Program-made: the position numbers and the translations under genes
Notes under the pieces: model-generated
The model's database searches: none
What the model was told of the DNA's origin: nothing
What the model saw: the letters and a program-made list of their open reading frames with translations, nothing else
NCBI GenBank assembly: GCA_023666945.1
Contig: JAMPAY010000002.1
Span: forward strand, 62,001-126,000
DNA: 64,000 bases
DNA from: Paludibacter sp.
GTDB taxonomy: Bacteria; Bacteroidota; Bacteroidia; Bacteroidales; Paludibacteraceae
Direction of reading: 5' to 3'
Shown: positions 48,622 through 51,630 of the stretch, in pieces
Numbering within the stretch: position 1 is the first letter of the stretch
Layout: the number at the start of each line of letters is the position of its first letter

Positions 48622-50733
48622 TTAGTTACGGAATGATAACTTCCCTTCACTGACGTCTACAATAACGGGTTTGCTATGTTCTACTTTTCCTGCAATGATT
48701 TGCTTGCTCAATTCGTTGAGTACCAATGTTTGCAGGGCACGTTTCACGGGGCGTGCACCAAATTGCGGGTCGTATCCTTCGTGGGCAATGAACCGTATGG
48801 CATCATCGGTTATACGCAGGTCTATGCCATTGGTTGCTAACATGTTGCGTATCGATGCAATTTGCAAACCTACAACCTCCTGAATCTCGTTCTCAGACAA
48901 GGGAGTAAATACAATGGTCTCATCAATACGGTTCAGAAATTCCGGACGTATGGTTTGTCGCAAGAGTTCCAACACTTGTTGGGTAGTCTGTTCGCGTGAT
49001 ACTTTGTTTTCTTCATTCTCTCGTATGAGTGACGATCCCAGGTTGGAAGTCATTATGATGACGGTGTTCTTGAAGTTTACGGTACGCCCTTTGTTGTCGG
49101 TAAGCCGACCATCGTCCAATACCTGCAAAAGTACGTTGAACACATCAGGATGCGCTTTTTCTATCTCATCAAATAAGACGACAGAGTAGGGTTTGCGGCG
49201 TATGGCTTCGGTAAGTTGACCGCCCTCATCGTATCCTACATATCCGGGAGGCGCTCCGATGAGTCGGGTAGCGGAGAATTTCTCTTGATACTCCGACATG
49301 TCAATACGTGTCATCATGTTCTCATCGTCAAATAGATAGTCTGCCAAGGCTTTTGCAAGTTCGGTTTTTCCTACACCTGTTGTGCCTAAGAATATGAACG
49401 AGCCGATAGGACGTTTGGGGTCTTGCAGACCGGCACGGCTGCGGCGTATAGCATCACTGACGGCACGAATGGCTTCCTCCTGACCGATAACGCGCTTGTG
49501 CAGTTCTTCTTCCAAATGGAGCAACTTGTCGCGTTCCGATTGCATCATTTTTGTAACAGGAATACCTGTCCAACGGCTTACTACCTCGGCAATGTCGTCT
49601 TCATCCACTTCCTCTTTGATGAGTGCGTTTCCGCCTTGCAATTGATGCAACTGTTCTTTGGCATGTTCTATGTTGGCTTCTGCTTCTTGTAGTTTGCTGT
49701 AGCGTATTTCTGCCACTTTTCCGTAGTCGCCTTCGCGTTCCGCCACTTCTGCCTTGTGTTTCAGTTGCTCGATGTTTATTTTCTCTTGCTGTATAGTGTC
49801 AATATAGTTTTTCTCTTCTTTCCAGCGTGCACGCATTTGCTCTGCCTCTTGCTTCATCTTGCCTATTTCTTCTTTAAGGCGTGCTAATTTGTCGGTGTCG
49901 TTTTCACGTTTGATGGCTTCGCGCTCGATTTCTAACTGCTTGATATTTCGTTCCAAAGTGTCGAGTTCTTCAGGTACGGAGTCCATCTCCAAGCGTAGTT
50001 TCGATGCCGCTTCGTCCACAAGGTCGATGGCTTTGTCGGGCAGGAAACGGTCGGATATGTAGCGGGTGGAAAGTTGTACGGCTGCAATGATGGCATCATC
50101 TTTAATGCGCACTTTGTGGTGGTTTTCATACCGTTCTTTCAGTCCGCGTAAGATGGATATTGTGGCTGCCTCATCGGGTTCTTCAATGCTGACAATTTGG
50201 AAACGCCGTTCCAAGGCTTTGTCTTTTTCGAAATATTTCTGATACTCGTTCAGTGTGGTAGCACCTATGCAACGCAGTTCACCTCGGGCCAATGCCGGTT
50301 TTAGTATGTTGGCGGCATCCATGGCGCCTGCCGACTGACCGGCTCCTACCAAAGTGTGAATCTCATCGATAAACAGAATGATTTCTCCTTCCGACTTCAC
50401 CACCTCGTTAATTACCCCTTTCAGTCGTTCTTCAAATTCGCCTTGGTATTTGGCACCGGCAATGAGGGCTCCCATGTCAAGCGAAAAGAGTTGTTTCTTT
50501 TTAAGGTTTTCAGGAACGTCGCCACGAACGATGCGATGTGCAAGTCCCTCGGCAATAGCTGTCTTACCCACACCGGGTTCTCCTATTAAAATAGGGTTGT
50601 TTTTTGTACGTCTGCTCAATATCTGCAACACACGACGGATTTCGTCATCCCGGCCTATCACCGGGTCCAATTTACCCGAACGTGCACGTTCGTTGAGGTC
50701 GATGGCGTACTTGTTAAGATTTTCGTTGTTCAT
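48622..50733 (-). CDS. clpB: ClpB disaggregase lacking the N-terminal domain
   Basis: A 703-residue AAA+ disaggregase. It begins at the linker before the first ATPase domain ([25 protein letters not shown]). NBD1 has Walker [10 protein letters not shown] and LFIDEIHTL. The coiled-coil middle domain (about 255-375, [15 protein letters not shown] onward) is complete, so this is ClpB and not ClpA or ClpC. NBD2 has GTTGVGKTE, and the C-terminal domain ([15 protein letters not shown]) is present. Full-length ClpB has about 860 residues; the missing 150 are the Clp_N domain, which helps select substrates. No Clp_N-coding sequence exists in the 217 bases upstream. The protein rescues aggregated proteins with DnaK. 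Its promoter region carries a sigma-54-type match and a perfect dyad. Confidence 0.93.
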
Positions 50734-50810: not shown

Positions 50811-50828
50811 ATGCAAGTGTTGTGCCAA
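50811..50828 (-). promoter_or_regulatory. Sigma-54-type promoter match upstream of clpB
   Basis: On the minus strand TTGGCAC, 5 bases, TTGCAT: GG and GC are separated by exactly 10 bases, matching the -24/-12 consensus. It lies 78 bases before the clpB start. A TAGGTTTG at 50833-50826 overlaps the -24 part and could instead be a standard -7 box, though no TTG lies at the -33 position. Confidence 0.5.
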
Positions 50829-50834
50829 ACCTAT

Positions 50835-50857
50835 ATCTCTGCCAAAATGGCAGAGAT
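50835..50857. promoter_or_regulatory. Perfect 10-bp dyad upstream of clpB
   Basis: ATCTCTGCCA and TGGCAGAGAT flank three bases. It lies just upstream of the -24 element, or within the spacer of the alternative standard promoter, so it is a good operator candidate. It does not resemble CIRCE, the HrcA operator. Confidence 0.6.
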
Positions 50858-50890
50858 GAATGTGTAGGCTGCGATAGTGTGCCGATTCAC

Positions 50891-50932
50891 ACCAAATGTC
50901 CCGTAAACATTTGTGTTTACGGGACATTTGGT
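50891..50932. terminator. Perfect 19-bp hairpin between the hdeD-like gene and clpB
   Basis: Arms 50891-50909 and 50914-50932 with a 4-base loop, 19 bases after the hdeD-like stop. A T5 run follows it on the plus strand only, so for minus-strand transcripts it is not a classical intrinsic terminator, though such a stable stem probably defines the 3' end. Confidence 0.65.
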
Positions 50933-50951
50933 AACTTTTTAAGGATTGGGG

Positions 50952-51569
50952 TTAAACTTCTATAGCCGTGACGTCTTCAACAATGTTTTTCTTAACAAAG
51001 GTATGAATATTTTTCAGGCGGAAAGCGATGAAGCAAAGTGCAACGCCTGCAATAAGCAAACCGCAACCCGATAAAACGATAACGAGAGATGCACCTAATT
51101 TCAGAGGATTCAACAATATCGCCAACGATAAAACGAGTAACAATAATCCGAAGAATACTTGCCAACCTGCTCCTGAAATACCGAATGTACGCATACGACT
51201 CCAGAAATCTATCATCTGTATGCTGCGGAACAATATCCAAATACCTAACATAAGAGGTAATAGGGCTGCCGATAAAGCGATATTGCTGCATAAGAAGATT
51301 CCTAAAATAATGTCAAGAATACCACCCAATAAGTTGAGCCCTGATGCTACAAAATAACTGTGAGAGGTGCAATAGAGTACTATTTCCACAATACCGCTCA
51401 ATAACATGATAACGCCAAATACAATGCTGAGGGTAAGATAAAATTCAGCGGGACAACAGAATGCTGCAATGCCTGTGGCGATTCCGAGAATACCGCAAAT
51501 GAGTACTAACCACCAATGCTTAACGGTTTGTGTGGCTTTGCGTGCCAACGTTTGTAAACTATTTTCCAT
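50952..51569 (-). CDS. HdeD-like membrane protein (DUF308)
   Basis: A 205-residue inner-membrane protein with six hydrophobic segments (about 18-38, 42-62, 75-95, 98-116, 128-148, 155-178). It has the glycine-rich helix pattern of the HdeD family (LNLLGGILDIILGIFL, LVIVLSGCGLLIAGVAL). E. coli HdeD is linked to acid resistance at high cell density; the biochemical activity is unknown. Short charged tails lie on the cytoplasmic side. It stands alone with a sigma-54-like promoter and is followed by clpB, another stress gene, on the same strand. Confidence 0.85.
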   Translation of the reverse strand: MENSLQTLARKATQTVKHWWLVLICGILGIATGIAAFCCPAEFYLTLSIVFGVIMLLSGIVEIVLYCTSHSYFVASGLNLLGGILDIILGIFLCSNIALSAALLPLMLGIWILFRSIQMIDFWSRMRTFGISGAGWQVFFGLLLLVLSLAILLNPLKLGASLVIVLSGCGLLIAGVALCFIAFRLKNIHTFVKKNIVEDVTAIEV

Positions 51570-51612
51570 AATTGTTTTAATTTAGGGTTACGAATGTTTG
51601 TTAGATAAAATT

Positions 51613-51630
51613 GTACAAATGGTGTGCCAA
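51613..51630 (-). promoter_or_regulatory. Sigma-54-like promoter match upstream of the hdeD-like gene
   Basis: Minus strand TTGGCAC, 5 bases, TTGTAC: the -24 element is identical to that of clpB and the spacing is the same, but the -12 GC is GT. No TAnnTTTG box is present nearby. It lies 44 bases before the start codon. Confidence 0.45.

Follow-up and report, generated by a model that had tools for sequence, protein, structure and literature searches.

A helically phased palindrome accompanies sigma-54-type promoters of clpB and other heat-shock genes in Paludibacteraceae and other Bacteroidia

The clpB gene in our window (the whole 64-kb stretch of Paludibacter DNA that was analysed) is preceded by a sigma-54 -24/-12 element and, 12 bp upstream of the -24 element, by a palindrome, TGCCATTTTGGCA, that is shared with the dnaK, groES, htpG and rsfS promoters. 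This palindrome is the main feature missed by the initial annotation, which had proposed an RpoN-controlled stress pair of clpB and the adjacent hdeD-like gene. We consider it very likely that sigma-54 RNA polymerase and an activator acting at the palindrome drive clpB as part of a heat-shock promoter class, and that hdeD falls into a second set of sigma-54 promoters. The surrounding genome, that of a gut bacterium, is a 2.08 Mb draft in 28 contigs (98.9% complete), and the closest named relatives of its clpB are from Paludibacteraceae bacteria (Bacteroidales) of rumen, colon and faeces.

The -24/-12 elements of clpB and hdeD

The clpB element, TTGGCAC-N5-TTGCA (TTGGCACAACACTTGCA; positions 50828-50812, minus strand), is an exact match, with GG at -25/-24 and GC at -13/-12 lying 10 bp apart. 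The hdeD element, TTGGCAC-N5-TTGTA (TTGGCACACCATTTGTA; 51630-51614, minus strand), retains the GG doublet, and GT replaces GC at -13/-12, as had been annotated. The sites end 78 bp before the ATG of clpB (50733) and 44 bp before that of hdeD (51569), so that both stand exactly where they were first reported. Under the -12 convention, transcripts are predicted to begin at about 50801 for clpB (50802 in the initial annotation) and about 51603 for hdeD. With both strands of the window scanned, the pattern TTGGCACN5TTGYA has only these two matches. Dinucleotide shuffles gave a mean of 0.01 matches and never two; the initial annotation had quoted a chance expectation of about 0.01 for the full clpB match.

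Across the genome, TGGCACN5TTGYA is matched exactly 16 times and with at most one mismatch 142 times, versus 45 for a reversed control pattern, so that the clpB and hdeD sites are two among many and do not form an isolated pair. About 11 of the 16 exact sites are correctly oriented and lie 15-98 bp 5' of an open frame or beside an evident start codon. Genes behind exact sites, besides clpB and hdeD, encode a bcp-like peroxidase, a MoxR-type ATPase and an OmpR-type response regulator. The last of these (L021:1579-2274) has its exact sigma-54 promoter 62 bp upstream, thus raising the possibility that RpoN feeds a two-component system in this genome.

The -24/-12 site upstream of clpB is kept by most Paludibacteraceae and by some Bacteroidales outside the family; 81 of the 106 orthologue upstream regions contain a -24/-12 score of at least 8. 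Judged by its sequence and conservation, the clpB promoter is a genuine sigma-54 promoter. The initial annotation had also offered TAGGTTTG as an alternative promoter for this gene, and the overlap is real, on the same strand as the clpB -24 element. Transcription of clpB mainly from a housekeeping sigma-A promoter, with the -24/-12 match secondary, is nevertheless very improbable. Only 2 of 47 sigma-54 promoters that bear the palindrome have an overlapping TAnnTTTG, but TGG-N9-TTG and the palindrome are retained, and the transcription starts mapped in Flavobacterium psychrophilum assign clpB, dnaK, groES, grpE and htpG to sigma-54 promoters (PMC9723704).

The hdeD-like gene (50952-51569, minus strand) encodes a 205-residue membrane protein of the DUF308/HdeD type (PF03729, E = 1e-15). 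Its site is kept in three of the closest orthologues, reading TTGGCACAGGATTTGCA in a genome of the same genus (G101) and TGGTACN5TTGC in two others (L070 and L072); several distant orthologues have no site. On this comparison hdeD probably has a true sigma-54 site, conserved in part of its orthologues. No activator palindrome lies upstream of it, and among the palindrome-less, hdeD-type sigma-54 promoters no shared upstream dyad rose above shuffles. What can be said for co-regulation with clpB is that the genes are adjacent, on the same strand and both preceded by TTGGCACN5TTGYA. However, only 14 of 120 family genomes have hdeD at all, and wherever a listed relative has both genes they lie far apart or on separate contigs. 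A perfect 19-pair, terminator-like hairpin (50891-50932; z = -7.5) also separates them here. Given the hairpin, the missing palindrome and the separation in relatives, clpB and hdeD are best read as neighbours and not as a regulatory pair. A co-regulated stress pair is thus improbable, and of that proposal it is the sigma-54-type promoters before both genes, borne out by conservation, rpoN and activators in the genome, that stand. The hdeD promoter would belong to a different sigma-54 branch from that of clpB, and this second, palindrome-less set would include the genes for the bcp-like peroxidase, the MoxR ATPase and the response regulator, among others.

A phased palindrome at heat-shock promoters

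The clpB palindrome (50840-50852; consensus CTGNCAWWWTGNCAG), a candidate upstream activator site, is centred at about -45 and is the sole occurrence of TGNCAN3TGNCA in the window. In relatives, TGNCA-WWW-TGNCA likewise precedes the sigma-54 site upstream of clpB. At least seven of the eight palindrome positions are present in 71 of 106 clpB upstream regions (1.5 expected), and all eight in 50 (0.2 expected). Named cultured carriers include Dysgonomonas, Parabacteroides faecalis, Hallella colorans and Prevotella multiformis; in the one Porphyromonas sampled, the clpB upstream region has neither the palindrome nor a sigma-54 site. The repeat reaches 23 bp in this species (ATCTCTGCCATTTTGGCAGAGAT; 50835-50857), and such a length could suit an RNA hairpin or terminator with no promoter role. 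This is extremely unlikely, because the repeat lies upstream of the predicted start, the actual terminator-like hairpin is the separate element described above, and relatives do not keep the 23-bp extension but retain only a sequence-specific core of 13-15 bp at phased spacing.

The genome contains 19 palindromes of the WWW form, compared with 3 for the control. A sigma-54 site follows the palindrome before clpB (gap of 12 bp), dnaK (53 bp), htpG (22 bp), rsfS-ftsH (12 bp) and groES-groEL (34 bp), where about 0.5 such pairings would be expected from the background rate of sites in the window. Fourteen of the 19 TGNCAWWWTGNCA palindromes have no adjoining heat-shock sigma-54 promoter, and grpE was not located in the stretches of this genome that were examined. 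As their promoter sequences indicate, the real sigma-54 partners of clpB are dnaK, groESL, htpG and rsfS-ftsH.

The promoter class consists of the palindrome CTGNCAWWWTGNCAG, a helically phased gap and TGGCAN6TTG. Among 120 family genomes, 68 carry the strict combination of palindrome and sigma-54 site, at roughly 118 places in all, against about 3 for the reversed-pattern control. In a phylum sample the combination has 37 matches in 36 of 296 genomes, nearly all of them in the class Bacteroidia, and none for the control; in the flavobacteria of that sample it marks grpE. Heat-shock or protein-quality genes lie downstream in 87 of 100 palindrome promoters examined, and include htpG, grpE, dnaK, clpB, groES, clpC, hsp20, rsfS(-ftsH) and a gene for a YugP-type peptidase. 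The latter, a zinc peptidase named by sequence resemblance alone, has the heat-shock palindrome promoter in three genomes (L157, L161 and L163) and is possibly an uncharacterised member of the regulon. Another recurrent match, TGTCAATTTGACA with a gap of 22 and TGGCAGA, is found in several genomes of g24 and g28 (L152, L174 and similar sites) with no heat-shock gene close downstream; it probably lies inside a conserved gene or serves another target.

Most palindromes stand 11-13 bp from the TGG; the remaining gaps are mostly 22-24, 33-34, 43-45 or 53-55 bp, and the best period is 10.5 bp. Such phasing fits an activator, a protein that has to keep to one side of the helix with respect to the polymerase. 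The palindrome is, moreover, a dyad-symmetric upstream element common to promoters that would be co-regulated. Classical sigma-54 enhancer sites lie at about -80 to -150, and a centre at -45 is therefore unusual for an enhancer-binding protein. Because the palindrome is not at the usual distal position, being centred at about -45 in most cases and strongly phased, we do not claim it as a typical enhancer and retain it as an element that, by its sequence features, would work like an activator site. A phased activator site this near a sigma-54 promoter is mechanistically unusual.

Sigma-54 machinery and the candidate activator

The initial annotation had pointed to rpoN and enhancer-binding proteins, and the genome has both: one copy of rpoN and two canonical sigma-54 activators. 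The activator model matches other proteins only weakly, and the ones examined were Clp-type AAA+ proteins. The first activator (C28) combines an AAA+ domain (PF00158) carrying an intact GAFTGA loop with an HTH_8 domain (PF02954), has no sensor domain, and is encoded in an operon with lptE, a TPR-type protein and secG. The second (C4; L101:4452-5666, minus strand) consists of a receiver and an AAA+ domain, with no HTH and with GAFTSA in place of GAFTGA. Similar protein lengths are seen in relatives, among which the sequences suggest that the DNA-binding domain is generally missing. Since only one of the two has an HTH, the lptE-linked protein is the only recognised activator able to bind DNA by a domain of its own. 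Almost every family genome encodes it. The recognition helix of the protein is near-invariant, with the preceding linker averaging 30% identity. The CA-WWW-TG core of the palindrome matches, at the same positions, the centre of what we take to be the NtrC consensus. These features make the lptE-linked AAA+/Fis-HTH protein the likeliest activator of the palindrome promoters, and probably the right one.

The palindrome might instead bind some other kind of regulator than an enhancer-binding protein, such as a repressor or a conventional activator, with the sigma-54 activator acting from solution or from elsewhere. The centre at -45, nearer than is usual for an enhancer-binding protein, would agree with this. 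So would the few genomes that have palindrome promoters and no close orthologue of the lptE-linked activator. About 8 of the 120 draft family genomes lack such an orthologue, and the promoters persist in some of them, G013 (94% complete) and G063 (90% complete). However, phasing over five helical turns suits an activator that touches polymerase better than a simple repressor, and both the NtrC-like placement of the CA-WWW-TG core and the almost invariant recognition helix of the lptE-linked protein, which alone among the sigma-54 activators here has a DNA-binding domain, speak for an enhancer-binding protein. We consider a regulator of another type rather unlikely.

Correlating presence and absence of the lptE-linked activator with the palindrome was uninformative, as the activator is nearly universal. 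Linkage to heat-shock genes was likewise weak as evidence, seen in 2 of 40 neighbourhoods (grpE in G101 and groES in G002). In G101, which is of the same genus, the activator gene (L318, G101:C27) is divergent from grpE, and the grpE palindrome promoter lies about 150 bp from the activator start. The activator operon of G002 continues to groES. The published start of the activator-lptE unit lies about 3.3 kb from that of groES-groEL in F. psychrophilum (PMC9723704). We take these observations as leads on the identity of the activator and not as proof.

Neither of the standard heat-shock regulators was recognised. HrcA is absent from all 61 sampled genomes of the family, and the best RpoH match in this genome scores 160.8 bits, below the cut-off of 323.1 for a model that is proteobacterial and may miss a divergent factor.

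Taken together, we propose that clpB would be transcribed by sigma-54 RNA polymerase from the element at 50828-50812, and that a dimer of the activator would bind the palindrome at 50840-50852, on the same helix face and unusually near the promoter, and switch the polymerase on. We infer this binding and activation, and a response to heat, from the arrangement of the sites and the genes behind them. The activator would be the sensor-less AAA+/Fis-HTH enhancer-binding protein encoded with lptE, whose HTH domain is predicted to bind CTGCCATTTTGGCAG and not the hdeD promoter. The promoter class would drive a cytoplasmic heat-shock regulon (dnaK, grpE, groESL, htpG, clpB, clpC, ftsH and Hsp20) in the family and part of it in other Bacteroidia, with sigma-54 taking over the job done by RpoH or HrcA elsewhere. 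That the receiver-AAA+ protein without an HTH serves the hdeD-type promoters is a guess. More tentatively, the lptE-linked, PspF-like protein could be the master heat-shock activator of the class Bacteroidia, acting from a proximal phased palindrome in a sigma-54 circuit that replaces sigma-32 and HrcA. As it has no input domain, it might in that case be restrained in trans by the chaperones that it induces.

Related systems and the form of ClpB

PspF responds to envelope stress, acts from distal sites and is held by PspA. Like PspF-type activators, the lptE-linked protein joins a sensor-less AAA+ domain to a Fis-type HTH and would serve a stress regulon. It scores below the NCBIfam PspF cut-off, however, and in contrast to PspF its proposed targets are cytoplasmic chaperones and its site is promoter-proximal. 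RpoH (sigma-32) and HrcA/CIRCE control the same genes, but the mechanism proposed here is positive and based on sigma-54, not on a heat-shock sigma factor or a repressor.

That sigma-54 promoters precede chaperone genes is already known in Bacteroidota, from mapped starts in F. psychrophilum and from prediction across the phylum. In F. psychrophilum such promoters lie before groES-EL, dnaK, grpE-dnaJ, htpG, clpB and lon (PMC9723704). These SM4 promoters resemble ours in the chaperone genes concerned, in the -24/-12 elements and in coming from the class Bacteroidia. The main text of that study names no activator and no activator site, whereas the present analysis adds both, in another order: a 15-bp palindrome at phased spacing and a candidate for the activator. 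A promoter-matrix-based study finds heat-shock chaperones, HSP90 and COG0542 (Clp ATPases) enriched among predicted sigma-54 targets of Bacteroidota, and its examined passages give no upstream element, spacing or activator for the chaperone set (PMC12316311). The main text of the B. thetaiotaomicron regulatory network paper does not include rpoN, clpB or chaperones (PMC12596196). In the main texts of the open literature, we found no earlier description of the palindrome, of its phasing or of the activator. Judged by those texts, the novelty lies in the palindrome with its proximal, phased placement, in its occurrence across Bacteroidia and in the candidate activator.

We found no settled answer to how heat shock is controlled in Bacteroidota, dominant gut bacteria among them, without the standard regulators. 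A conserved 15-bp element that accompanies the sigma-54 promoters of almost every major chaperone and disaggregase gene, together with one candidate activator, makes this question tractable, and the palindrome-bearing promoters point to how bacteria lacking the usual heat-shock regulators may turn on the response.

The ClpB encoded in the window (48622-50733, minus strand) is itself a short form. It is a 703-residue disaggregase that aligns to positions 153-852 of the 853 in TIGR03346; both AAA+ modules are present, and no Clp_N domain is detected by Pfam. Its score of 1191.7 bits against the full-length ClpB model falls below the cut-off of 1232.1, in keeping with a ClpB devoid of the N-domain. 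The short form occurs in all eight sampled genomes of the genus and, beside full-length forms, in other genera of the family (g15, g8, g21, g2 and g16), suggesting that the N-domain of ClpB has been lost repeatedly.
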